Positions 5,008-18,158 of a DNA stretch of 48,101 nt are shown here, one piece after another. The notes beneath the pieces were generated by a model that saw nothing but the letters and a program-made list of their open reading frames with translations, searched no databases and was not told where the DNA came from. The DNA comes from Clostridium sp. CAG:678 (GTDB lineage: Bacteria > Bacillota > Clostridia > Oscillospirales > Acutalibacteraceae), in NCBI GenBank assembly GCA_000431535.1, contig HF991817.1, forward strand, positions 49,297 to 97,397, written 5' to 3'. Numbering within the stretch: position 1 is the stretch's first letter; every line of letters starts with the position of its first letter. Both the position numbers and the translations under genes were made by a program.

Positions 5008-6504
5008 ATGAATAAAAGAAAGGCTACTCAGCTGCTTGTGGAATTTTCGGTGGACCTTTCGTCTCTTCTGTTTGCAAATCTGATTTCTTTTTTGCTGTGC
5101 ACGGCGATCCATAAGATCCCAAATCTTACAAAGCAGTCCGCATGGATCTATGTGATCTGCCTTGTACTGTCTTTTTGCGTCATCTTTTTCGGCTTTTCGG
5201 TATCTCTGGATCTGTCGGTCAGAAACAGGTTGCGTGAATTTATTGCGGTTGTCAGAAACTGCCTTTTAACGTATATGACCCTTTCCGTAGCGCTCGTTCT
5301 TACAAGAAGTGATCTCGTAAACGGCAGGTATATGTTTCTGATCTCGCTGTTCCTTTTCATTTCGTTTTCCTGTATCAACAGGTATTTTACCAAGCGCCTT
5401 CTGATTCGCCATTTTTCGCATTCCGGGCTGGTAAATCTTGCGGGCGTCATTACGGTTGGCAGAAGGGCAGAAGATTTTGTTTCAAACCTTCAGCAGGACT
5501 GGACAAGGCATATCAAAGGCGTTGCCGTGATCGACGCCGAATATCAAAACGGAAATTACGTTTTTTCCGATGCTTTGAAATCTTCCGGCGGAAATGCCGT
5601 TGCGGCAAAACCAAAAGCAATAAAATATGTTTCTTCGGTTCCGGTTGTTGCCAATCTGGATAATGTGATCGACTGGGTCAAAAGGGAATCTCTGGACGAA
5701 GTCTATATCAATGTACCCTATGAGTATGAAAGCAAAATAGCGCAACTTGCCGAAGAGATCGAAAGCATGGGCATTATGGTTCACATTAATCTTCCCACGC
5801 TTGAAAAATTGGTGGAAAACAGCGAATTTGATAACGTGGAATGCACCATGGTGGCAGGCTACCCAACGGCAACGCTTACGGCTGCGCGCCAGCTGCCGCT
5901 TTCCGCCGTTATCTTTAAAAGAATTGTGGATATTATCGGCGGCTTTTTAGGCAGCCTGATTTCCTTGCCGGTCATACTTGTTGTTGCCGTGCCGCTGCTG
6001 ATCGAATCCCGCGGTCCGCTCATTTTTAAGCAGCCGCGCGTTGGAAAAAACGGCAGGGTGTTCAATATTTATAAACTGCGTTCCATGTATGTGGACGCGG
6101 AAGAGAGAAAAAAAGAACTGCTGGCTAAAAATGAAATGAACGGTTATATGTTTAAAATGGATAATGACCCCAGAATCACAAAAGTCGGCAGATTTATACG
6201 CAGAACCAGCATTGATGAACTGCCCCAGTTCTGGAATGTACTGAAAGGGGATATGAGCCTTGTGGGCACAAGGCCTCCCACGCTGGATGAATTTTCAAAA
6301 TATGAAAGCCACCATAAACGCCGCCTTTCCATGCGGCCGGGTATAACCGGCATGTGGCAGGTCAGCGGGCGTTCAAAAATCAATAATTTTGAGGATGTTG
6401 TAAAACTGGATTGTGAATACATAGATAACTGGAGCGCCTGGCTGGATCTGAAGATCATGTTCAAAACCGTGGGCGTTGTACTCAGGGGGATCGGCGCGGA
6501 ATGA
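5008..6504 (+). CDS. undecaprenyl-phosphate sugar phosphotransferase (initiating transferase)
   Basis: Integral membrane enzyme that loads the first sugar-1-phosphate on undecaprenyl phosphate. The 498 residues contain four to five N-terminal membrane helices (to ~residue 150), a cytoplasmic Rossmann-like CoA_binding_3 region (about 150-270) and a C-terminal bacterial sugar transferase domain. The latter begins at KRIVDIIGG (near 300) and carries YKLRSMY, the SIDELPQ segment and GDMSLVGTRPP (near 415). This is the WbaP/CpsE/EpsE architecture. The sugar (glucose, galactose or another) cannot be read from the sequence. The ribosome site is weak (AAGGG about 13 bases upstream). Its stop overlaps the next gene by 4 bases (ATGA). 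Confidence 0.93.
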   Translation: MNKRKATQLLVEFSVDLSSLLFANLISFLLCTAIHKIPNLTKQSAWIYVICLVLSFCVIFFGFSVSLDLSVRNRLREFIAVVRNCLLTYMTLSVALVLTRSDLVNGRYMFLISLFLFISFSCINRYFTKRLLIRHFSHSGLVNLAGVITVGRRAEDFVSNLQQDWTRHIKGVAVIDAEYQNGNYVFSDALKSSGGNAVAAKPKAIKYVSSVPVVANLDNVIDWVKRESLDEVYINVPYEYESKIAQLAEEIESMGIMVHINLPTLEKLVENSEFDNVECTMVAGYPTATLTAARQLPLSAVIFKRIVDIIGGFLGSLISLPVILVVAVPLLIESRGPLIFKQPRVGKNGRVFNIYKLRSMYVDAEERKKELLAKNEMNGYMFKMDNDPRITKVGRFIRRTSIDELPQFWNVLKGDMSLVGTRPPTLDEFSKYESHHKRRLSMRPGITGMWQVSGRSKINNFEDVVKLDCEYIDNWSAWLDLKIMFKTVGVVLRGIGAE

Positions 6505-7658
6505 AAAACGATTCGCATCTTAAGATCGCCATGATCGGGCATAAGCGGATCCCGTCGCGTGAGGGCGGCGTGGAGATCGTGGTTTACGAACTGTCCAGTT
6601 TCTTGGCAAAAGCCGGCAACCGGGTGGATGTCTATAACCGGGGCGGCAGTCATGTTTCCGGCAGCAGGTTCAAAAGCGAGGATATGCCGCTTGATCCGAA
6701 GGTTAAGATCATCACCGTGCCCACCCCGAAATCAAAAACGTTAAACGCTTTTGTTTACAGCTTTTTTGCGTCGCTCCGGGCGCTTTTCGGCGGATATGAC
6801 GTTATCCATTTCCATGCCGAAGGCCCGGCGGTCATGTGCTTTTTGCCAAAACTTTTCGGCATACGCACGGTTGCAACGATTCACGGGCTGGACTGGCAAC
6901 GGTCAAAATGGGGCGGTTTTGCTTCAAAATATCTTAAATTCGGTGAAAAAACGGCGGCTAAATATGCAGATGAGATCATTGTGCTCTCCCGCTCCGTTCA
7001 GGATTATTTTAAAAAGGAATACGGCAGGGAGACCGTTTATATTCCAAACGGCGTTCGTGCGCCGCAAATCCGGTCTCTTTCCTTGCTTGCAGAGAAATAC
7101 GGCCTGAAAAAAGACGGGTATCTTCTTTATCTCGGCAGGATCGTTCCGGAAAAAGGCATTCACTATTTGATAGACGCCTATTCCGCGCTGCATACGGAAA
7201 TGCCGCTTGTGATCGCCGGCGGATCCAGTCATTCACAGGCGTATTTTGAAGAACTGAAAGTAAAAGCGCAGGGCAAAAAGATCGTGTTTACGGATTTTGT
7301 GCAGGGAAGGGAATTGGAAGAACTGTATTCCAATGCGTATCTTTATGTTTTGCCCAGCGATCTTGAGGGAATGCCCATCAGCCTGCTGGAGGCAATGAGT
7401 TATTCCAACTGCTGCCTGACTTCGGATATAGAGGAATGCACGCAGGTGTGCGGCGATAACGCCGTTTACTTTAAAAAGAGCAATGTGAAAGATCTTAAAA
7501 ACAAACTGGAATTTTTGCTCGGCAGCAGAGATGCTGTAGAAAACTATAAACAGCGCGCGGCGCAATATGTCCTTTCCCGCTACAGCTGGGAAAATGCCGG
7601 CAAAAAAACGCTTGCGCTTTACAGGGGTGAACCGCTTGAAGATACTGATCGTAAATAA
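6501..7658 (+). CDS. glycosyltransferase family 4, DUF1972-like N-terminus
   Basis: Cytoplasmic nucleotide-sugar-dependent transferase predicted to add the second sugar of the repeat unit. The 385-residue GT-B protein starts with the IPSREGGVE motif typical of the DUF1972/rhamnosyltransferase-like GT4 subgroup. The C-terminal donor-binding half has the LYLGRIVPEKG segment and the SDLEGMPISLLEAM motif that holds the GT4 EX7E glutamates. It overlaps the preceding transferase by 4 bases and the following GT4 gene by about 23 bases, so translation is probably coupled. Donor and acceptor are unknown; its place after the initiating enzyme suggests an early step. Confidence 0.9.
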   Translation: MKNDSHLKIAMIGHKRIPSREGGVEIVVYELSSFLAKAGNRVDVYNRGGSHVSGSRFKSEDMPLDPKVKIITVPTPKSKTLNAFVYSFFASLRALFGGYDVIHFHAEGPAVMCFLPKLFGIRTVATIHGLDWQRSKWGGFASKYLKFGEKTAAKYADEIIVLSRSVQDYFKKEYGRETVYIPNGVRAPQIRSLSLLAEKYGLKKDGYLLYLGRIVPEKGIHYLIDAYSALHTEMPLVIAGGSSHSQAYFEELKVKAQGKKIVFTDFVQGRELEELYSNAYLYVLPSDLEGMPISLLEAMSYSNCCLTSDIEECTQVCGDNAVYFKKSNVKDLKNKLEFLLGSRDAVENYKQRAAQYVLSRYSWENAGKKTLALYRGEPLEDTDRK

Positions 7659-8820
7659 ATTTTTATATCCGAACGGCGGTTCCGAGACCTATATTTTTAA
7701 AATCGGCGAGCAGTTGCAAAAATGCGGTCATGAAGTGCAGTATTTCGGCATGGAGCACAGCGGCAGGATCGTGGGCAATCAGCTTGGTCTTTATACGAAA
7801 GATATGGATTTTCATACCGGATCCCTGCTTTCCAAATTTACATATCCCGTAAAAACGATCTATTCTTCCGATGCAAAGCGAAAGATGCTTGCCGTTTTAA
7901 AAGATTTTCAGCCGGATGCGGTTCATCTGAACAATTTTAACTATCAGCTTACCCCCACCGTGATCCTTGCCGTTAAGCAATATGAAAAAGAATCCGGCAG
8001 GCGTGTCAGGCTCGTTTATACAGCACATGATTATCAGCTTGTGTGCCCCAATCATATGATGATGACGCCGTCCGGGCAGATCTGCGAGAAGTGCGCGGGC
8101 GGTCATTCTATAAACTGCTTTAAAAATTCCTGCATCCATTCTTCAAAACTGAAAAGCATTATCGGCGCCGCGGAGGGCTGTTTCTGGCATTCCAAAAAGG
8201 TTTACAGATGGATAGATACCGTTATCTGCCCAACGGCTTTTATGGCGTCTAAAATCAATCAGGATCCCGTGTTCCGCGGTAAAACAAAAGTGCTGTATAA
8301 TTTTATTGACAAGGTGGATAAAACGCCTGTTCAGAAAGAGGATTACGTTCTGTTTTTCGGCAGGTTCAGCGCCGAAAAAGGTATGGAAACGCTGATTGCC
8401 GCAAAGGATATTGACTTTGTTTGCGCGGGGAGCGGCCCTATGGAAGATGCGGTCAATCATTCTGCGAACATTAGAAATGTTGGCTTTAAAACCGGTAAAG
8501 AACTGGAAGAACTGATAAAAAAAGCGGCTTGCTCCGTTTATCCCAGTATTTGGTATGAAAACTGCCCGTTTTCCGTTATGGAAAGCATCTCTTACGGCAC
8601 CCCGGTTGTTGGCGCAGCCATCGGCGGCATACCGGAGCTGATTGATGACGGCAAAACGGGCTTTCTCTTTGCGCCCGGGAATGTAAAAGACTTTTCGGAT
8701 AAAGTAAAGGCGCTTCTCGGCAACAAACAGCTTGCTTTAGAAATGCATAAAAACTGCCTGAATAAAAAGTTTATGACGGTAGATCAGTATTGTGAAAAGC
8801 TCTTGGAGATCTATAGTTAA
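7636..8820 (+). CDS. glycosyltransferase family 4
   Basis: A second GT-B retaining glycosyltransferase, 394 residues when read from TTG at 7636. This start gives LKILIVNKFLYPNGGSE, the usual GT4 N-terminus with a glycine-rich acceptor loop, and has AGGGGTG about seven bases upstream. An ATG at 7567 is in frame but would add 23 residues with no family resemblance, all inside the previous gene. The donor half shows LFFGRFSAEKGM, YPSIWYENCPFSVMESI (EX7E region) and a GGIPELI segment. A cysteine-rich patch near residues 140-165 (several C and H) is common in this subgroup and may bind metal. The sugar specificity is unknown. Confidence 0.9.
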   Translation: MKILIVNKFLYPNGGSETYIFKIGEQLQKCGHEVQYFGMEHSGRIVGNQLGLYTKDMDFHTGSLLSKFTYPVKTIYSSDAKRKMLAVLKDFQPDAVHLNNFNYQLTPTVILAVKQYEKESGRRVRLVYTAHDYQLVCPNHMMMTPSGQICEKCAGGHSINCFKNSCIHSSKLKSIIGAAEGCFWHSKKVYRWIDTVICPTAFMASKINQDPVFRGKTKVLYNFIDKVDKTPVQKEDYVLFFGRFSAEKGMETLIAAKDIDFVCAGSGPMEDAVNHSANIRNVGFKTGKELEELIKKAACSVYPSIWYENCPFSVMESISYGTPVVGAAIGGIPELIDDGKTGFLFAPGNVKDFSDKVKALLGNKQLALEMHKNCLNKKFMTVDQYCEKLLEIYS

Positions 8821-8868: not shown

Positions 8869-10044
8869 ATGTCTAAAAAATTAAACGGCACGGTCATCGT
8901 TACCTACCGCTGCAACGCCAGGTGCAATATGTGCAGCAGGTATAAACGGCCGTCTTCACCGGATGAGGAGATCAGTCTTGATACAATAAAAAAACTGCCG
9001 CGGATGTATTTTACCAATATCACCGGTGGTGAGCCGTTTATCAGAACGGATCTTAAGGATATTGTGCGCGAACTGTATAAAAAGAGCGACAGAATCGTGA
9101 TCTCCACAAACGGCTTTTTTACAGACAGAATTATAGACCTGTGCAAAGCGTTTCCGAATGTGGGCATTCGTATCTCTATTGAAGGTCTGGAGGAAACGAA
9201 TAACGCGATCCGCGGCCTTCCGGACGGATTTAACCGCGGCTATGCCACGCTGAAGAAATTGGTGGAGATGAAACATCCGGATGTTGGTTTCGGCATGACG
9301 GTGCAGGACGCAAATGCAAAGGATCTGGTTCCGCTTTACGAGCTTTCAAATGAGCTTGATATGGAATTTGCAACCGCTTCGCTGCACAATTCTTTTTATT
9401 TTGTTGAGGCGAGAAATATTATTAAAGACAGACCTATGGTGGCGCAGAATTTTGAGGATCTCATCAATGAACTGCTAAAGAGCAACAGCCCTAAAAAGTG
9501 GTTTCGCGCCTATTTTAATCACGGCCTGATCAATTACATATACGGCCAGAAACGTCTTTTGCCATGCGATATGGCGTTTGATACGTTCTTTATTGATCCG
9601 TATGGGGATGTTATGCCCTGCAACGGAACAAAAGAAAAAGAGGTCATGGGCAACCTTAACGAACAGAGCTGGGACGAACTGTGGAACAGCGCGCAGGCGG
9701 ATACTGTGCGCAAAAAGGTTAGAAACTGCAGCAGAAACTGCTGGATGATCGGTTCCGTTTCGCCCGCTATGCACAAATATATCTGGGTGCCTGCCGCATG
9801 GGTTATCAAGCATAAGTTTCTCAACTTCTTTAAAGATAAAAAATACAGTATGTACGAACTGCCGATCGTGCGCGATTACAGGGACGGTAAAGTTACCAAA
9901 GCAGAACTTGACGCGCTTTCCACATGCGATATGCATGCCGATGTGAACGACGGCCTTTCTGAAAAGTCCAAAAAAGCGCTTGTGGGCACCAGCGGCGAGG
10001 AAATTGTAGATGCTGATATCCAAAACCAGATGAACAGGTACTGA
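8869..10044 (+). CDS. radical SAM protein with SPASM-like C-terminus
   Basis: Predicted iron-sulfur enzyme that cleaves S-adenosylmethionine to start radical chemistry; the substrate is unknown. The 391-residue protein has the CNARCNMC cluster motif (CX3CX2C) at about residues 15-22, a GGEP motif near residue 57, and the barrel strands typical of PF04055. From residue ~228 there are further cysteines in a SPASM-like order: LPCDMAF, MPCNGT, then NCSRNCW. The DPYGDVMPC wording is that of auxiliary-cluster regions. The protein ends with a ~90-residue tail not obviously part of the core. It lies between glycosyltransferase genes. It could modify a sugar or a peptide, or be a maturase. The ribosome site is AAGAAGG, seven bases before the ATG. 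Confidence 0.85.
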   Translation: MSKKLNGTVIVTYRCNARCNMCSRYKRPSSPDEEISLDTIKKLPRMYFTNITGGEPFIRTDLKDIVRELYKKSDRIVISTNGFFTDRIIDLCKAFPNVGIRISIEGLEETNNAIRGLPDGFNRGYATLKKLVEMKHPDVGFGMTVQDANAKDLVPLYELSNELDMEFATASLHNSFYFVEARNIIKDRPMVAQNFEDLINELLKSNSPKKWFRAYFNHGLINYIYGQKRLLPCDMAFDTFFIDPYGDVMPCNGTKEKEVMGNLNEQSWDELWNSAQADTVRKKVRNCSRNCWMIGSVSPAMHKYIWVPAAWVIKHKFLNFFKDKKYSMYELPIVRDYRDGKVTKAELDALSTCDMHADVNDGLSEKSKKALVGTSGEEIVDADIQNQMNRY

Positions 10045-10045
10045 T

Positions 10046-10942
10046 ATGGCTGAACTGACCATTTTAACTCCGTCTTTTAACAGGAAAAAAGAGCTTCATG
10101 TTTTATTTGACTCCCTTTGCTGTCAGTCAGATAAAGATTTTGAATGGGTCATCGTGGATGACGGTAGTACGGACGGTACTTTTGAAACCGCACAGGTATT
10201 CAGGGCGCATGCGGATTTTCAGGTTAAGTATTATCAAAAAGAAAACGGCGGAAAACATACGGCGCTCAACTTTGCTTTAAAAAGGATCAATACGCCGCTT
10301 GTGTTTATTGTGGATAGCGATGACCGGCTTACTGAGAATGCGGTGAGAATCATACATGAAAAATACCGCGCATATAAGCATGAAACAGATCTTTGCGGCT
10401 TTAGTTTTCTGCGTCAAAGGGCAAACGGAGCCGGATACCTGACGAAACCTCTGCAAAAAGACAATATAAAATCTACCTATTGCGAACGGCTAAATCACGG
10501 TCTGGAGGGCGATATGGCAGAAGTGTGGTATACAGAGAAACTGCGTGCTTTTCCGTTTCCGGAATTTAAGGGAGAAAAATTTTTGGGTGAGGATACGGTT
10601 TGGGTCAAACTTTCCGGCAAATATAAGATACGCTTTTTTAATCAGGCGGTGTATATTTCAGATTATTTAAACAGCGGTCTTACCCTGAACCGCCGCCGCC
10701 ATAATATTCAGTCGCCAAATGGATGTGTGGCGCGTGCACAGGCTTTTTTGGATTCAGATGTGGATTTTAAACATAAAATCAAAGCCATGCTGCAGTATTT
10801 TATTTACGGCAGATTTGCCGGCAGATCACAGGCAGATCTTTTTAAAGCCACACAATACAAAAAACTTGCCTTGCTTTGTGCCGTGCCGGCGCAGTTCCTT
10901 TTTGAAATTTGGAAAAGAAAGTTTAAAACAGTTAAAAAATAA
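10046..10942 (+). CDS. glycosyltransferase family 2
   Basis: Cytoplasmic GT-A inverting glycosyltransferase of 298 residues. The N-terminus shows LTILTPSFNR, the nucleotide-binding VIVDDGSTDGT and the metal-binding DSDD motif near residue 92. The segment around GEDTVWVKL supplies a plausible catalytic acid region. The start lies one base after the stop of the radical SAM gene, so the two are almost certainly translated together. Donor and acceptor unknown. Confidence 0.9.
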   Translation: MAELTILTPSFNRKKELHVLFDSLCCQSDKDFEWVIVDDGSTDGTFETAQVFRAHADFQVKYYQKENGGKHTALNFALKRINTPLVFIVDSDDRLTENAVRIIHEKYRAYKHETDLCGFSFLRQRANGAGYLTKPLQKDNIKSTYCERLNHGLEGDMAEVWYTEKLRAFPFPEFKGEKFLGEDTVWVKLSGKYKIRFFNQAVYISDYLNSGLTLNRRRHNIQSPNGCVARAQAFLDSDVDFKHKIKAMLQYFIYGRFAGRSQADLFKATQYKKLALLCAVPAQFLFEIWKRKFKTVKK

Positions 10943-10954
10943 AAAGATTCGGTA

Positions 10955-11818
10955 GTGCTGTCTATGATCCCATTCAAACAAAAACTCCATAATGCTTTGC
11001 GTGATTTTTCTGATAATAATGCGGCTTTTCACAGAATCTATCTTTTTTACAGGTATGTTCAATTTTCCTTTCAGGGGGCGGTTGTAAATACCAAAAGATT
11101 TTTCAGAAAGCACGGCGTCGGCGGTGGAAAATACAAAAAACTTTTGCCTTATAAAGACATTCATAACGGTGAAAGGTGTTTTATCATTGCAACCGGCCCG
11201 TCGCTTACGATGCAGGATCTGGAAAACCTTAAAAATGAAAAGACCATCAGCATGAATTCCATCTGCAAGCTTTATGATCAAACGGACTGGCGACCGACTT
11301 ATTTTGCCGTGCAGGATGATAAAGTGTTTGAAACCTTGCAGGAGATCATCAGAGCGCATAGCGAAGTGCCGGTGTTTATCAGTGATAATGTGCCGTCAAG
11401 GTTTAAGCGCGAAAAAGCGTGGGTCGAATTTCCAACAGATACCAAGTATCATTCTTATGACATTTTAAAGCAGAAGTATTATGCCAGATTCAGCGATGAC
11501 GCTTATGATATCGTCTATGACGGCTATTCCATAGCCTATTCCTGTATTGAACTTGCCGTATATATGGGCTTTAAGGAGATCTATCTGCTCGGCGCGGACT
11601 GCACTTATCTTGGAGAAAAAGAGCACTTTGTGGACAGCGGTGTTGAGGACCGTTCCAGAAAATACGCCACGCCAAAACTGATCGTGGGCTATGAAAAAGT
11701 GAAAGAATATGCGGATTCCCACGGAATCAAAGTGTTTAACGCCACACGCGGCGGCGTGCTTGAGGTGTTCCCCCGCGTTGATCTGGATGCTGTTTTAAAG
11801 GAGAAAAGCAGAGCATGA
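10955..11818 (+). CDS. DUF115 / MptE-like protein, possible CMP-sugar glycosyltransferase
   Basis: A 287-residue protein of the DUF115 (6-hydroxymethylpterin diphosphokinase MptE-like) family. It shows the glycine-rich ATGPSL motif near residue 75 and the core GFKEIYLLGADCTY near residue 210. A C-terminal Rossmann-like strand and helix follow. Proteins of this fold include archaeal pterin kinases but also the Maf-type transferases that attach CMP-activated nonulosonic acids to flagellin. GT42 sialyltransferases such as CstI carry similar GNGPSL and YKEIYLSGIDF patterns. Because the next gene overlaps by 4 bases and encodes a CMP-sugar synthetase, I infer it transfers the acidic sugar rather than a pterin pyrophosphate. 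The start may be GTG 10955 or ATG 10964; neither has a strong ribosome site. Confidence 0.75.
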   Translation: MLSMIPFKQKLHNALRDFSDNNAAFHRIYLFYRYVQFSFQGAVVNTKRFFRKHGVGGGKYKKLLPYKDIHNGERCFIIATGPSLTMQDLENLKNEKTISMNSICKLYDQTDWRPTYFAVQDDKVFETLQEIIRAHSEVPVFISDNVPSRFKREKAWVEFPTDTKYHSYDILKQKYYARFSDDAYDIVYDGYSIAYSCIELAVYMGFKEIYLLGADCTYLGEKEHFVDSGVEDRSRKYATPKLIVGYEKVKEYADSHGIKVFNATRGGVLEVFPRVDLDAVLKEKSRA

Positions 11819-12483
11819 AAATCGTTGCCATAGTTCCCATGAAATTGAATAACACAAGACTGCCGCAGAAAAACACCAAGGCTTTTACAAACGGCAAACC
11901 GCTTTGTTATTACATTTTGAATACGCTGCTTAAAATAGACAGGATAGATGAAGTTTATGTTTACTGCAGCAATGAAAAGATTAAAGAGTACATTCCAAAA
12001 GACGTAAAATTTTTGAAACGTTCTCCGTCGCTGGATACGGATTCTACCTTAATGAATGAAGTGCTCAAAGCCTTTGCAGAGGATGTGTTTGCGGATATCT
12101 ATGTTATGACCCACACCACGGCGCCTTTTGTTTCGGCAGAAAGCATAGAAAAGGGGCTGGACGCGGTTTTGAGCGGCATGAACGATTCGGCGTTCGCTGC
12201 TAAAAAACTTCAGGATTTCCTTTGGAAAAACGGAACGCCGTTTAATTATTCGCTGGAAAATATTCCGCGCACGCAGGATCTGGATCCGCTTTATGAGGAA
12301 ACAAGCGGTTTTTATATCTATGAAAGATATGTGATCACCGAAATGGGCAGGCGCATCGGCCAGAATCCGTTTATTGTGGAGGTCAACGAGATCGAAGCGG
12401 TGGATATAGACGAAAAAGAAGATTTTGAGATTGCGGATGCAATCTATAATCATATTTACAGAAAGCGTGGCGCGGATGAATAA
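11815..12483 (+). CDS. CMP-sugar synthetase (acylneuraminate cytidylyltransferase family)
   Basis: Predicted to activate an acidic ulosonic sugar with CTP. The 222-residue protein matches the PF02348/COG1083 pattern: an N-terminal nucleotide loop IVPMKLNNTRLPQKN, an LDTDST segment near residue 78, and MTHTTAPF in place of the LQPTSPL seen in sialic acid synthetases. VDIDEKEDF near the C-terminus supplies the metal-binding aspartates. The loop carries PMK where NeuAc and Kdo synthetases usually have AR, so the substrate may not be standard N-acetylneuraminate. It overlaps the DUF115 gene upstream (ATGA) and the aldolase gene downstream by 8 bases. No neuB, neuC or kdsA homologue is visible in the window. 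Confidence 0.85.
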   Translation: MKIVAIVPMKLNNTRLPQKNTKAFTNGKPLCYYILNTLLKIDRIDEVYVYCSNEKIKEYIPKDVKFLKRSPSLDTDSTLMNEVLKAFAEDVFADIYVMTHTTAPFVSAESIEKGLDAVLSGMNDSAFAAKKLQDFLWKNGTPFNYSLENIPRTQDLDPLYEETSGFYIYERYVITEMGRRIGQNPFIVEVNEIEAVDIDEKEDFEIADAIYNHIYRKRGADE

Positions 12484-13243
12484 AATACTTGAGGATTTCA
12501 GAACCAAACTGAATCGGGATGAATGTGTTTACGGCATTTTTATGAAAACCGGCGATCCCATGTTCGTTGAGGCGGCAAGCCTCGGCGGATTTGATTATGT
12601 GATCTTGGATACGGAGCACGGCCCCGTTTCCATAGAAAATCAGCAAAATAATATTCGTGCGGCAGAAGCGCGCGGCGCCGTGCCGATTATCCGGCTGAAG
12701 GATTCCGGCGAAAACACTGTGGGCAAAGCGTTGGATATAGGCGCTTACGGCATACAGGTGCCGCAGATTAATTCTGCGAAAGACGCGGAAAAAGTAGTAA
12801 AATTTGCAAAATTCTATCCTTACGGAATGCGCGGCGTGTGCCGTTTTGTGCGTGCTGCCGATTATTCCGCTATGGATCGGTATGAATATTTTGAGGATTC
12901 AAAAAACCTGCTTATCATCCTCCAGCTGGAGGGGGTTCAGGCGATTGAAAATCTGGATGAGATCCTTGAGGTGGATGGGGTGGATATCCTGTTCATCGGC
13001 CCTTATGATCTTTCGCAGTCCCTTGGCATTCCGGGGCAGGTAAATAACCCGAAAGTTGTGCAAGAGATGAAAAAGATCGTTGCCAAGGCAAAAAAGAAGA
13101 ATAAAGTGATCGGCACTTTTGTGGATACGCCGCAGGATCTTGTGATGTGGCGTGATCTCGGTGTGAAATATTTAAGTTATTCGGTAGATGTCGGCATTTT
13201 TCTGGACGCGTGCCGAGATCTGAACAGATCTTTTGAGAAATAA
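12476..13243 (+). CDS. HpcH/HpaI-family pyruvate aldolase
   Basis: Class II metal-dependent aldolase family catalysing reversible addition of pyruvate to an aldehyde. The 255 residues carry the family's catalytic set: DTEHGP near residue 42 (catalytic histidine), an IIRLKD arginine near residue 70, QLEG near residue 143 (metal glutamate) and GPYDLS near residue 170 (metal aspartate). Most relatives degrade aromatic or sugar acids. Here the gene starts inside the end of a CMP-sugar synthetase gene (8-base overlap), which points to synthesis of a 2-keto-3-deoxy sugar acid for the polymer. ATG 12476 is chosen because the longer reading from 12425 adds a tail without family resemblance. Function in biosynthesis is inferred. 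Confidence 0.9.
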   Translation: MNKILEDFRTKLNRDECVYGIFMKTGDPMFVEAASLGGFDYVILDTEHGPVSIENQQNNIRAAEARGAVPIIRLKDSGENTVGKALDIGAYGIQVPQINSAKDAEKVVKFAKFYPYGMRGVCRFVRAADYSAMDRYEYFEDSKNLLIILQLEGVQAIENLDEILEVDGVDILFIGPYDLSQSLGIPGQVNNPKVVQEMKKIVAKAKKKNKVIGTFVDTPQDLVMWRDLGVKYLSYSVDVGIFLDACRDLNRSFEK

Positions 13244-13335: not shown

Positions 13336-14580
13336 GTGAAGTTTAAATTAAAACTGAATTTTACATTAAGTGTTTATGATATTTACGCCGTTCTCATTCT
13401 CCTTTTTCCCATCTGTTTCTCTATAGGCGGCATTTTCGGATATTATGACGAGATGATAGGGGCGGTTTCCTTCGTTTTTGTATGGTTTCTTATGATCACA
13501 AAGCGGCTTGACCGAAACAGCCGGCAGATTATGATCGCGATTGCCGCCGTTTCCGTGATCGGGCTGGTCTCCAATCTGGTCAGCAAACTCATTACGCAGC
13601 CGTTTCCCGTCTTGGTCGATCTTTTGTGGCTTTGGAAAACGTTTGCGCCGTTTATTGCTTCTGTTTATCTAATGCGTAAAGATCATGTTCGCCGCCGCGT
13701 TGTAAGTGCTCTTGTTATGCCGTCAAAACTTGCCATTGTTGTGTTTTTTCTGCTTTCATTGGTTGGTCAGGTTGTGGATATCGGTTTTATACCGTCCGAT
13801 TCTTTGTTCGGGCTCAGGATATTCGGTATCTCATGGATGCGCGGCATCTCGTTTGGCTGGGTTGTATTTTGCTGTGTTGTGATCCTTGCGCTTTCTGAGA
13901 TCAGTTCAAGATCTTTCTTTTTGTATACTGCCTTGGCGTGTGTTCCTATGATCTTAACACAGGCGGCGCTTGTATATTGCTTTGTGTTCTGCGTAATCTT
14001 TATGGCAATTATGTTCCGCAAGCAGGATAAGTTTAAACTGCGCTATGTTATTCCTATCGTGGCGGTTGTGGTCTTGTTTACATGGCGGGATATCCAGCAA
14101 TATCTAATTTCTGATTCGATCCGAAAAACGCTGATCATCTACGGCGGCAGAGTGGCAAATATGTATTTTCCGCTCGGTTCCGGCTTTGCTACCTATGGTT
14201 CCGAAATGGCGCAGAGGTATTATTCACAGCTGTATGATCTGTTTGGCTGGCGTAATTCCTGGGGCTTTGGGCCTGACAGTACATTCCTCAACGATAATTT
14301 CTTCGCCAGCATTATCGGGCAGTTCGGCTGGATCGGCTTTGCCGTGTATCTTTACGCCATGTTCCGCCTGTTTATGATGGTGAATTCCAAACTCGTTAAA
14401 AAGAGAATTAAAATAACCGGCATTGCCACTGTGCTCACCATGCTTGCTGTTATGATCGGCAGTGCCTCCGTAAAATCCATGATGGGTATCTGCACCTTTG
14501 TTGTGCTTGGGCTCGTTGCAGCAGAAGTGCAGTCAAAGGCAAATGCGCAGAGTCAATTATTAAAGCAAGAGGGCGAATGA
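13336..14580 (+). CDS. Wzy-like polysaccharide polymerase (O-antigen ligase/polymerase family)
   Basis: Polytopic membrane protein of 414 residues with about ten hydrophobic segments across its length. A larger loop around residues 255-325 contains several charged and aromatic residues (ending near DSTFLNDNFFASIIGQFG), the position of the periplasm-facing loop in Wzy and O-antigen ligase proteins. Such enzymes are poorly conserved. The assignment rests on topology and on its place in a locus that otherwise has all Wzx/Wzy-pathway parts. Start is GTG 13336 behind AGAGAGGTG. The 92-nt gap upstream holds only a small hairpin (13288-13304). Confidence 0.8.
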   Translation: MKFKLKLNFTLSVYDIYAVLILLFPICFSIGGIFGYYDEMIGAVSFVFVWFLMITKRLDRNSRQIMIAIAAVSVIGLVSNLVSKLITQPFPVLVDLLWLWKTFAPFIASVYLMRKDHVRRRVVSALVMPSKLAIVVFFLLSLVGQVVDIGFIPSDSLFGLRIFGISWMRGISFGWVVFCCVVILALSEISSRSFFLYTALACVPMILTQAALVYCFVFCVIFMAIMFRKQDKFKLRYVIPIVAVVVLFTWRDIQQYLISDSIRKTLIIYGGRVANMYFPLGSGFATYGSEMAQRYYSQLYDLFGWRNSWGFGPDSTFLNDNFFASIIGQFGWIGFAVYLYAMFRLFMMVNSKLVKKRIKITGIATVLTMLAVMIGSASVKSMMGICTFVVLGLVAAEVQSKANAQSQLLKQEGE

Positions 14581-14581
14581 T

Positions 14582-15565
14582 ATGATCTCTGTGATCGTAC
14601 CTGTGTATAACGTTGAAAACTATCTTGATAAATGTCTTGGCAGCATTGCTTCACAAACCGTAACGGATCTGGAGGTCATCCTTGTGGATGACGGCTCATC
14701 CGATATGTCGGGAATGATCTGTGATGCATGGGCAAAGAAAGATGCAAGATTTCGTGTGATGCACCGCCAAAACGACGGCGTAAGCAGTGCGCGAAATGCA
14801 GCGCTCCAAGCCGCTAAAGGCGATTTTATTGCGTTTGTGGATGCGGACGACTATATAAATAAAGATATGTTTCGGCTTTTGCTGAATGCTTTGGCAGAGG
14901 ATGCCGATATAGCTGTATGCGGGTTTAACACGGTGGAACAGGGCACGGTTTCTCAGGTGCTGTGTGATGAAAAAATGTGTGTGAACAGTGCCCAAGCCGC
15001 ACGTCTTTGTATTCAAAAGGGCGAATGGGGTCTTGTGATCTGGAATAAACTTTTCCGGCGCAGTGTGGTCTTTTCCGGCGCAGAGCCGGTCAGATTCCCG
15101 GAAGATATATTCATCGGGGAGGATGCATTGTGGCTCATTGAAGTTTGCTGCAGATCCCAAAAGGCGGTATATGTGCCTGAAGCGTGTTATTATTACATAA
15201 AACGGCAAAACAGCGCGGTGTATAAAAGCAAGCGGGAAAGGCTTGTGGAAAGCAGCGCGTCAAGATATGCATCTGCTGTTCGGGGTTATGAAATATTAAA
15301 AAACGCGGGAAATTCCTGCGCTTTTCTGATGTTTAGGCGCGGCGTTTTTTCCGCAAGGGATATTGCCTGCGCAGCTTACTGCGAATCAAATGAAAAAGTG
15401 TATCGAGAATGGATAAAAAAATTTCATTCGGCGCTTTCGGATTATAAAAAAATGGTTGGCAAAGGCAAAGATATTCTGTTTCTGTTGAAAAATGATATAC
15501 TTTATTACGCCATGCAGTTTCATTTTCCAAAGAAATGGGTGCAAAAACTGCTTCAGTTTAAATAA
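14582..15565 (+). CDS. glycosyltransferase family 2
   Basis: GT-A family transferase of 327 residues with a classic N-terminus: ISVIVPVYNVENYL, then VILVDDGSSD and the DADDY metal-binding motif near residue 92. EDALW near residue 180 is in the catalytic base position. The C-terminal ~100 residues are basic and likely contact acceptor lipid or membrane. The start overlaps the Wzy stop region with one base between. It is closer to the CpsI/EpsJ-type transferases than to the other GT2 in the locus. Sugar unknown. Confidence 0.92.
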   Translation: MISVIVPVYNVENYLDKCLGSIASQTVTDLEVILVDDGSSDMSGMICDAWAKKDARFRVMHRQNDGVSSARNAALQAAKGDFIAFVDADDYINKDMFRLLLNALAEDADIAVCGFNTVEQGTVSQVLCDEKMCVNSAQAARLCIQKGEWGLVIWNKLFRRSVVFSGAEPVRFPEDIFIGEDALWLIEVCCRSQKAVYVPEACYYYIKRQNSAVYKSKRERLVESSASRYASAVRGYEILKNAGNSCAFLMFRRGVFSARDIACAAYCESNEKVYREWIKKFHSALSDYKKMVGKGKDILFLLKNDILYYAMQFHFPKKWVQKLLQFK

Positions 15566-15598: not shown

Positions 15599-16723
15599 AT
15601 GAAAGTCGGCATCATCACGTTTCAAAGGGCGGATAATTACGGCTCTTTGCTGCAATGCTATGCGTTGTACAAAAGCGTTGAGAGTTTCGGAGTAGATGTA
15701 GAGGTTGTGGATTACAGAAACCCGTATATTGAAAGGGCATATGTTGGGCTGCCGAATTTCAGAAAAAATTTTATCGTCTGGGGAAAACAGGCGTATACCC
15801 GTTTCTCCAATTACTCCAATGTTCTGAAAAAACATGCGGCTTTTGAAAAACTCATTGGCAGCATGCACTTTTCCGAAGGGTTAAAAAAGAAAGATATCTT
15901 ACATAACGGTTTGGAGTATGACCTAATCTTTACTGGCAGTGATCAGATCTGGAACCCGGTCATGACAAACGGTTTTGACGATGTGTATTACCTGAATTTT
16001 CCCGGAAATTTTTTCAGATGTTCCTATGCGGCAAGCCTTGGAAATTCCAAAAGTAAAAAACTGGATCCTCAAAAGCTTAAAACCAGAATAGACCGAATGG
16101 ATAGGATATCCGTTAGGGAGCAAAGCGCATGCGAAACGATTTACGCGCTCACCGGTAAAAATGCGCAGGTATGTGTGGATCCCACGCTGCTGCTCAGCAG
16201 AACAGAGTGGGAAGCCCTTTGTGAAAAAGCGGATATCGATACAGAGGAACGGTATATTCTGCTTTATTATCTGGATGATAATAAGGATTTGGTTAAAATT
16301 GCACAGTCACTTGCAAAAAAGCATTCTGCAAAGATCATCTGCTGCAACAAAAACCCGGTCTCCGGTGAAAATATTCAGTGGATCGGCGACCTTGGCCCTG
16401 TGGATTTTGTTAAATTGGTGAAAGATGCAGCGGCCGTTGTGGCGTCATCCTTTCACGCCGCTGTCTTTTCCGTAATATTCGGCAAGGCGCTATATGCCAT
16501 CCCGCATCCCGAAACGGGCGAAAGAGTGAAAACGCTGGCAGCGCTTTGCGGGTTTTCAGACGGATTTTATAAGTCCTTTGAAGATTTTGAAAGCCGAAAC
16601 GGCGCCTCATTGCCTGTTTCCTATGATTATACGAATCTTCAGAAAGCCGTTGCGGAATCCAAAGATTTTATCAACAATGCTGTTGAAACGGCAAAACGCC
16701 GAAACCAAGTTCCCGAAAGGTAG
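15599..16723 (+). CDS. polysaccharide pyruvyltransferase family protein
   Basis: Predicted to transfer a pyruvate ketal from phosphoenolpyruvate to a sugar of the repeat unit (PF04230). The 374-residue protein begins KVGIITFQRADNYGSLLQ, the usual N-terminus of this family, and carries TGSDQIWNP near residue 118 and SSFHAAVFSVIFGKAL near residue 285. A well-placed AGGGGAAGGGG precedes the ATG. With the CMP-sugar/aldolase module this would give the polymer a second source of negative charge. Some members act on protein-linked glycans, so the substrate remains open. Confidence 0.9.
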   Translation: MKVGIITFQRADNYGSLLQCYALYKSVESFGVDVEVVDYRNPYIERAYVGLPNFRKNFIVWGKQAYTRFSNYSNVLKKHAAFEKLIGSMHFSEGLKKKDILHNGLEYDLIFTGSDQIWNPVMTNGFDDVYYLNFPGNFFRCSYAASLGNSKSKKLDPQKLKTRIDRMDRISVREQSACETIYALTGKNAQVCVDPTLLLSRTEWEALCEKADIDTEERYILLYYLDDNKDLVKIAQSLAKKHSAKIICCNKNPVSGENIQWIGDLGPVDFVKLVKDAAAVVASSFHAAVFSVIFGKALYAIPHPETGERVKTLAALCGFSDGFYKSFEDFESRNGASLPVSYDYTNLQKAVAESKDFINNAVETAKRRNQVPER

Positions 16724-16730
16724 TGTTGAT

Positions 16731-18158
16731 TTGAGCAGAGGCAAAGAACTTGCTAAAAATACCGCAATTCTTACATTTGGTAAGGTCTGCACCCAGTTTA
16801 TCAGTTTTTTCCTTCTTCCGCTGTATACTGCCATTCTGGATACGGCGGAATACGGCACCTATGATCTTCTTATCACTTATGCAACGCTGCTTTTGCCGCT
16901 GTTTAACTGGCAGTTGGATCAGGGCGTTTTTCGGTTTATGCTGGAGGTAAGAGATAACCGTGCGGGGCAGACAAAATTGTTTTCTACCATTTTTACTGCC
17001 AATACCGCGCAGTCGGCAGCCTATGTGGCGATTCTGCTTCTGGTTTCCAAATTTGTGGATCTGCCAAATGTTTGGTTCCTCGCGGCGTATGTTGTTGTAC
17101 TCATTTATCTTAATCTGCTCCTCCAGTTTGCAAGAGGGCAGGGCAGAAACGTGGTTTATGCCGTTGCCGGCTTTATTTCGGCGTCCGCCACCGTTGTGTT
17201 TAATGTGATCACGCTTGTTGTGCTGAAACTGGGTCTTAACGGCCTTTACATATCTACGCTTGCCGCGTATTTTCTGGCAGTTGCTTATCTCTTTTTCGCT
17301 TTGAAACCGTGGAGATATTTAAGAATTAAGCAGGTTAAACTTTCTGTTTTAAAAACCGTCTGCCGTTATTCTTTGCCGCTCATTCCGAATAATCTTGCCT
17401 GGTGGGTCGTTAATGTGTCAGACAGGCTGATCGTTTCTCACATTCTGGGCGTGGGGCAAAACGGCATTTATACCGTTGCAAATAAATTTTCAAATGTTTT
17501 TATCTCCTTTTATAATATTTTTAATCTGTCTTGGACGGAATCCGTTTCTCTGCATTATCAGGATGAGGACAGGGATCGGTTTCTGAGCGAAACGATCACT
17601 ACGCTGTATAAACTGTTTTCGTGCGCCTGCCTTGGAATCGTAGCGCTGATGCCGTTTATTTTCCCGATTCTGATCAATGAAAGTTACGGCGAGGCATATC
17701 CTCAGGTGCCGATCCTGATGTATGCCATGCTGATGCGTGTAATCGTGGGCCTCTACAGCTGTATCTACATCGCCATGAAAAACACCAAAAAAGTTGCTTA
17801 CACTTCCGCCGCTGCGGCAGTGATCAATATCGTGGTGCATCTGCTGCTTATCAATAAGATCGGTCTTTTTGCAGCCTCCATTTCCACTTTTGTTGCGTTT
17901 GGAAGCATGGCGGTCATCCGCTATATAGATGTAAACCGGTATGTAAAAATGAAGATCTCAACCCCCGTGCTTGTATCTTCTTTTGTGCTGGGTATCGCGC
18001 TGATGATATCGTATTATCAGCAGAATACAGCGCTTGATGTGATTTTCCTGATCATCGTTTGCGTTTATGCCGTTGCAATGAACTGGAAATTCGGCCTTAA
18101 ATGCCTTGCCGAGGCAAAAGAACTGCTGCTTAAATTTAAAAACAAAAAACAGCAGTAA
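16731..18158 (+). CDS. Wzx-type polysaccharide flippase
   Basis: Polytopic inner-membrane transporter that moves the lipid-linked repeat unit outward. From TTG 16731 the product has 475 residues, twelve to fourteen hydrophobic segments and the opening LAKNTAILTFGKVCTQFISF, the normal N-terminus of the PST/MATE-like family. AAAGG lies ten bases upstream. An in-frame ATG at 16578 would add 51 residues encoded inside the pyruvyltransferase gene and lacking any hydrophobic start, so it is rejected. It is the last gene of the operon and is followed by a strong terminator. Confidence 0.9.
   Translation: MSRGKELAKNTAILTFGKVCTQFISFFLLPLYTAILDTAEYGTYDLLITYATLLLPLFNWQLDQGVFRFMLEVRDNRAGQTKLFSTIFTANTAQSAAYVAILLLVSKFVDLPNVWFLAAYVVVLIYLNLLLQFARGQGRNVVYAVAGFISASATVVFNVITLVVLKLGLNGLYISTLAAYFLAVAYLFFALKPWRYLRIKQVKLSVLKTVCRYSLPLIPNNLAWWVVNVSDRLIVSHILGVGQNGIYTVANKFSNVFISFYNIFNLSWTESVSLHYQDEDRDRFLSETITTLYKLFSCACLGIVALMPFIFPILINESYGEAYPQVPILMYAMLMRVIVGLYSCIYIAMKNTKKVAYTSAAAAVINIVVHLLLINKIGLFAASISTFVAFGSMAVIRYIDVNRYVKMKISTPVLVSSFVLGIALMISYYQQNTALDVIFLIIVCVYAVAMNWKFGLKCLAEAKELLLKFKNKKQQ

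Follow-up and report, generated by a model that had tools for sequence, protein, structure and literature searches.

In the known natural pathways, the sialic, pseudaminic and legionaminic acids and 3-deoxy-D-manno-oct-2-ulosonic acid (Kdo) are formed by phosphoenolpyruvate (PEP)-dependent synthases. The genes of these enzymes are the usual basis for predicting acidic sugars. The cytidine monophosphate (CMP)-sialic or nonulosonic pathway comprises NeuB, NeuA or PseF, and a transferase of the GT42, GT52 or polysialyltransferase type; the CMP-Kdo pathway comprises KdsD, KdsA, KdsC and KdsB. Pyruvate aldolases include the HpaI and the DRE-TIM enzymes, which belong to separate superfamilies, and the known class II members GarL, YfaU and HpaI serve breakdown. 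The locus described here lies in a 48,101-nucleotide stretch of Clostridium sp. CAG:678 (the window; GCA_000431535.1, contig HF991817.1, G000:C32:49297-97397). Three of its genes, for a DUF115 protein, a CMP-sugar synthetase and an HpcH/HpaI aldolase, form a module that probably synthesizes a CMP-activated 3-deoxy-2-ulosonic acid and then uses it, as predicted from genes and fold.

The original prediction had these genes joined by overlaps of 4 and 8 bases within a polysaccharide locus, and the open reading frame (ORF) coordinates and Pfam families bear this out: DUF115 and synthetase genes share 4 bases (ATGA), synthetase and aldolase genes 8. As in the CMP-sialic pathway, an enzyme of family PF02348 would activate a 2-keto-3-deoxy acid with CMP, and a sialyltransferase-like fold, here that of the DUF115 model, would serve transfer. 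The logic of a 3-deoxy-ulosonic acid is shared with the CMP-Kdo pathway as well. The difference lies in the first enzyme. The genome has no NeuB match, and a pyruvate aldolase holds NeuB's place. The comparison supports a CMP-ulosonate used like sialic acid or Kdo, for which a pyruvate aldolase stands in for the expected PEP synthase.

The three proteins and their described relatives

The synthetase belongs to PF02348 (79.7 bits; cut-off 22.6), and the four other matches to this family in the genome each stay below 30 bits. Its closest solved relatives are PpNeuA (9t4z, 96 bits), the mouse CMP-Neu5Ac synthetase (67) and K-CKS (37). It lies below the equivalog cut-offs of kdsB (TIGR00466; 14.9 versus 155.2 bits) and PseF (TIGR03584; 66 versus 205.7 bits), and is thus not KdsB by score. 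Among 83 synthetase rows (three rows below 200 bits were removed before this comparison and before both synthetase trees), K10, H100, W137, T153, Q154, D155, E162 and D197 are identical throughout. The metal-binding Asp pair of NeuA-type enzymes (Asp209/Asp211) is retained: D197 occupies the first position in every row, and the second is Asp in 65, the window included, and Asn in 18. HMMER alignment to 6ifd places H100 at the Gln104-type and T153 at the Arg165-type position in all 83 rows, so that neither residue of the NeuA type is present.

The loop reads P8-M9-K10 in place of the usual P-A-R, with K10 in 83 of 83 rows. Loss of the AR residues had been taken as a pointer to an unusual substrate. 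The change itself is real, but the deduction fails: Arg12 of the E. coli CMP-Neu5Ac synthetase is described as nucleotide-binding (PMC2901514), so the substitution says little about the sugar, and it was rejected as a sign of an odd substrate. Docking described in the same paper has the Arg165-type residue of the Neisseria enzyme bind the sugar carboxylate (PMC2901514). H100 (for Gln104) and T153 (for Arg165) are the better hints.

The DUF115 protein matches PF01973 (MptE-like) with 55.8 bits (cut-off 34.6). Comparison of its predicted structure with CstI and Maf had been proposed; the model is confident and matches Maf, Cst-I and CstII best, so the predicted fold is sialyltransferase-like, as in Maf and the GT42 Cst enzymes. 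This backs the suggestion that the protein is a natural transferase. It is not PseD by score (18.7 versus 670 bits); compared with the Maf/PseD flagellin glycosyltransferases, it is a protein of 287 residues encoded in a polysaccharide locus.

The aldolase belongs to PF03328 (HpcH_HpaI; 111.9 bits, cut-off 25) and is the only protein of the genome above that cut-off; a second match reaches 21.3 bits. Its gene starts at ATG 12476, since relatives align from that codon, and the TTG at 12425 in the automatic ORF list was dropped. The best solved relatives are 4tv5, 2vws (YfaU) and 1dxe (GarL), at 121-134 bits. D45, E47, H48, R73, D87, E152 and D178, which we take to be the catalytic and metal-binding positions of class II pyruvate aldolases, are all present and align with identical residues of 2vws. 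They are invariant in 11 of 11 rows from CMP loci, in agreement with the claim that the family's catalytic residues are kept. The protein thus shares family and catalytic residues with GarL, YfaU and HpaI. It differs in scoring far under the equivalog cut-offs of GarL (TIGR03239; 161.7 versus 406.75 bits) and HpaI (TIGR02311; 160.1 versus 368.8 bits), and in its polysaccharide setting where known members have a breakdown role. HpaI proteins of CMP loci form one tree group, weakly supported (68/87) when nearer relatives are included (11 CMP-locus rows plus 18 hand-picked other HpaI loci), and with support 98 in a smaller selection that leaves out L147 and the window's own copy, L122.

Recurrence of the module and exchange of its aldolase

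A scan of named genomes gave 163 relatives, and the best 80 are the loci analysed below (L089 and L110 repeat L033 and L034). Gene families rest on tblastn hits (1e-8) or on blastp clusters (1e-15), with profile scans of examples only; the clustering of neighbour families excluded L084, L099 and L119. In nine of the 80 loci an HpaI aldolase gene is at most 100 bases from the synthetase gene. In 55 that distance holds a DRE-TIM aldolase of the 4-hydroxy-2-oxovalerate aldolase type, which occurs within 10 kb in 66; five loci have neither enzyme, and L088 has both. The order DUF115-synthetase-HpaI is repeated in L042, L043, L044, L045, L047, L048, L053 (DUF115-cluster gene at 5498-6283) and L189. 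L046 and L051 carry synthetase and HpaI genes without DUF115. Recurrence across loci rules out a chance neighbourhood, and the prevalence of DRE-TIM rules out HpaI as the fixed partner. In L053 (6338-7864), synthetase and HpaI aldolase are continuous in a single open frame of 508 residues that begins with TTG; it rests on a single metagenome contig, and an assembly frameshift is possible. At L088:3543-9484 three synthetase-family genes, HpaI, DRE-TIM and a 2-keto-3-deoxygluconate-kinase-like gene stand in a row.

The window's order gives a similar picture. Among 295 genomes, 29 have a synthetase match and nine (own included) exceed 200 bits. In the other eight the gene after the synthetase is never HpaI. 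Seven of these genes encode the LDCTLRDG motif of DRE-TIM enzymes at their start (profile scans of four gave PF00682), and in L039, whose synthetase is 48% identical to the window's, it is KdsA (PF00793). The PEP route is therefore used there, and Kdo use in this lineage is possible. The region L039:7845-13451, from a genome of the window's order, carries the distant synthetase orthologue and KdsA, followed by frames that resemble KdsD and KdsC by eye; L039 also has a 901-residue frame matching DUF115.

Adjacency to a synthetase is not a general property of HpaI proteins, as flank surveys at two ranks made clear. HpaI matches at 1e-20 occur in 62 of 398 phylum genomes, and no synthetase (E 1e-8) was found within at most 1.5 kb per side of the 28 non-own loci returned. 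At class level HpaI matches at 1e-30 occur in 64 of 391 genomes, with a synthetase (E 1e-6) in three of the 29 loci L156-L184; two of these, L156 and L158, repeat L051 and L053, and L157 (= L189) is new.

Trees of the synthetase place HpaI-partnered rows among DRE-partnered ones. The tree without L189 (L004 and L005 omitted, their genomes recurring as L089 and L110) shows two partner-label changes versus a shuffled mean of 9.7, and a single HpaI clade is not rejected (p-AU 0.747). The L189 synthetase is 51% identical and groups with DRE-partnered rows (support 100), though its locus reads DUF115-synthetase-HpaI. With L189 included (71 rows; 14 rows of 14 loci left out by choice), starred branches force at least two label changes, yet a single HpaI clade is still not rejected (p-AU 0.164). 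Among the 83 rows no alignment column separates the 10 HpaI-partnered synthetases from the other 73; therefore the two aldolases probably supply it with one kind of substrate.

The DRE-TIM enzymes resemble the DmpG/BphI type and the putative aldolase 3dxi of Bacteroides vulgatus, and form the alternative aldolase beside the same synthetase family. They usually carry a C-terminal DUF115-like domain, a likeness that comes from profiles alone, since matches to the barrel domain took up the whole structure comparison, which is uninformative on the C-terminal one. DRE-TIM aldolase, DUF115-like domain and a HAD domain are united in one frame of 754 residues at L111:10662-12923. The window's locus has no DRE-TIM gene. 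A 27% identical relative (L196:1501-2373) lies on another contig of the genome, by eye between phosphoglycerate dehydrogenase- and 3-deoxy-D-arabino-heptulosonate 7-phosphate (DAHP) synthase-like frames. By record titles, cassette carriers are mostly Clostridia and more rarely Bacilli, Bacteroidales, Treponema, Synergistaceae and a methanogen. Ruminococcus flavefaciens Y1 (L061, with a DRE-TIM aldolase), Lactococcus hodotermopsidis and Sporolactobacillus spathodeae are among the cultured ones. The archaeal case is a Methanomethylophilus contig (L085:1981-3536) with its DRE-TIM gene in two pieces. Beside the synthetase/DRE-TIM cassette of L037 (13585-17895) stand frames that by eye resemble a fusion of nucleotidyltransferase with PEP mutase, and a phosphonopyruvate decarboxylase; phosphonate decoration is possible there.

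Most of the synthetase-bearing genomes surveyed show neither PEP-dependent synthase. Neither NeuB (PF03102) nor KdsA (TIGR01362) has a match at E 0.001 in the window's genome, which at 2.39 Mb in 41 contigs is 98.5% complete, so that this is not proof of absence. KdsA gives no hit within 10 kb of the synthetase in any of the 80 loci. A survey of 53 genome handles (those of 44 among the 80 loci, that of the window and eight from the order) found NeuB above 150 bits, a limit of our own choosing, in 11, KdsA above cut-off in four, both in one and neither in 39. As G725 repeats G293 and G729 repeats G062, the non-redundant figure for neither is 37 of 51. Weaker NeuB matches (24-47 bits) mostly coincide with sub-cut-off Kdo 8-phosphate synthase matches, as DAHP synthases would. 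The 11 HpaI-type genomes (own included) have no KdsA above cut-off, and two (L045, L047) have NeuB. Single absences weigh little because draft genomes may miss genes. The statement that no NeuB or KdsA is visible thus stands for the window's genome and 39 of the 53 handles, not for the 14 that carry one or the other, nor for L039, with KdsA in the slot itself.

The transferase position varies too. DUF115 genes occur in 32 of the 80 loci, polysialyltransferase-like genes in 23, and both together in none (P = 4.5e-7, a value that ignores relatedness and counts contigs as they stand, truncated or not). Among the example loci scanned, PF07388 is above cut-off in L034, L046, L051 and L092; L034 also matches GT52, though not up to its cut-off.

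The search for conserved adjacency without NeuB or KdsA, proposed with the original prediction, was therefore positive, and it turned up an unrelated pyruvate-aldolase family in the aldolase position of most relatives. For the proposed route from pyruvate aldolase to synthetase, the support is comparative and not chemical; the restriction to HpaI falls away, HpaI being one of two alternative aldolases. The conserved partner of the synthetase is a pyruvate aldolase as such.

Proposed route, alternatives and identity of the acid

The following steps are proposed. (i) The HpaI-type class II aldolase would work in the condensation direction, joining pyruvate to a sugar aldehyde to give the acid. 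(ii) The synthetase, judged by family and residues, would couple the acid to cytidine triphosphate (CTP), and pyrophosphate release would pull the aldol step forward. (iii) The DUF115 protein, with its Maf/Cst-like fold and its exchange with other transferases, would transfer the CMP-bound sugar onto a glycan. (iv) Neighbouring Wzx/Wzy-type proteins would export and polymerize this acceptor. A more tentative generalization is a widespread PEP-independent CMP-ulosonate route, mostly in Clostridia, in which two reversible aldolase families derived from breakdown feed one synthetase subgroup with a short C5-C6 acid, and DUF115 or polysialyltransferase-like enzymes transfer it into surface polymers.

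The acid itself is best guessed to be short, C5-C6, of the 2-keto-3-deoxygluconate kind, although C8-C9 is also allowed. The guess rests on the breakdown of 2-keto-3-deoxy sugar acids around several near aldolase relatives and on a PfkB kinase in 12 related loci. Outside CMP loci, some near HpaI relatives adjoin ILVD/EDD dehydratases (L123, L124) or PfkB kinases (L127, L128), or have an MR/MLE-type enzyme, a PfkB kinase and a 2-keto-3-deoxy-6-phosphogluconate (KDPG) aldolase nearby (L188); the relatives L185-L187 have no clear setting. In 11 of its 12 loci the PfkB gene lies directly 3' of the DRE-TIM gene, and profile scans of two gave sub-cut-off matches to 2-keto-3-deoxygluconate/galactonate kinases or the fusion of these with an aldolase. 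Hints of a longer, phosphorylated route also exist: L040 has a KdsC-type phosphatase gene and L105 one like it, 15 loci carry HAD genes and seven KdsB-cluster genes, and L039 has KdsA. Kinase and HAD genes never share one of the 80 loci (chance P 0.067). The synthetase-aldolase family may make several acids.

These settings also lend themselves to other explanations. The aldolase could cleave, as NanA does, trimming or recycling an ulosonic acid from uptake or another pathway that the synthetase then activates; several near HpaI relatives do sit among breakdown genes, and the 14 handles with NeuB or KdsA fit such a supply. Two unrelated aldolase families beside one synthetase would be odd for a clean-up enzyme, however, and the fused frame of L053 and the lack of a PEP synthase match in the window's genome and 39 handles likewise speak against cleavage, which we regard as unlikely. 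The kinase next to DRE-TIM, and the ILVD/EDD or MR/MLE enzymes beside some sister HpaI genes, would suit an ordinary breakdown intermediate of the 2-keto-3-deoxygluconate type, supplied by a dehydratase elsewhere and activated directly, with the aldolase balancing the pool. That the aldolase is the conserved partner, and that no sugar-acid dehydratase was seen by eye among the recurrent neighbour families (not all profile-scanned), makes this account distinctly improbable.

Most improbable is an ordinary Kdo or nonulosonic acid from a PEP-dependent synthase, with the aldolase serving another step of the polymer. L039, with its KdsA and its KdsD- and KdsC-like frames, and the phosphatase genes of L040 and L105 speak for it; the missing NeuB and KdsA matches of the window's genome and the low kdsB and PseF scores of its synthetase speak against it. 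Synthesis of the acid by aldol condensation, followed by CMP activation, remains the reading preferred here.

The surrounding locus and wider significance

Genes for glycosyltransferases, polymerization and export surround the module (table 1). The radical SAM/SPASM family occurs, by neighbour clustering, in eight of 11 HpaI-type loci and one other.

Table 1. Features of the polysaccharide locus in the window.
Feature	Position	Strand	Remarks
Glycosyltransferase group 1 (PF00534)	7567..8820	+	profile scan
Radical SAM/SPASM protein	8869..10044	+	profile scan; recurrent in HpaI-type loci
Family 2 glycosyltransferase (PF00535)	10046..10942	+	profile scan
DUF115 (MptE-like, PF01973), proposed CMP-ulosonate transferase, sialyltransferase-like fold	10955..11818	+	GTG start, 287 aa
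CMP-sugar synthetase (PF02348), distinct subgroup K10/H100/T153	11815..12483	+	222 aa
HpcH/HpaI class II pyruvate aldolase (PF03328)	12476..13243	+	ATG start, 255 aa
Probable Wzy-type polymerase	13336..14580	+	PF04932 18.9 bits, below cut-off 31.7; same family in 6 HpaI-type loci
Family 2 glycosyltransferase	14582..15565	+	profile scan
Polysaccharide pyruvyl transferase (PF04230)	15599..16723	+	profile scan
Wzx-type flippase (PF01943)	16578..18158	+	true start probably downstream of 16578

No description of an aldolase-fed CMP-ulosonate route was found among the matches listed (titles and abstract openings); subscription papers and preprints lay largely outside this search, and unpublished status is not implied. 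The analysis turns the vague annotations 'HpcH/HpaI aldolase', 'HMGL-like' and 'DUF115' into a directly testable pathway. If the proposal is true, the synthetase-aldolase cassettes would gain a function within a second logic, built on aldolases, and a short C5-C6 acid would yield a CMP-sugar of a sort that the classical sialic acid and Kdo pathways do not cover. Unusual CMP-sugars could then be made with natural pairs of aldolase and synthetase, of which one may be fused, and many Clostridia would bear unrecognized acidic sugars of this origin on their surface.
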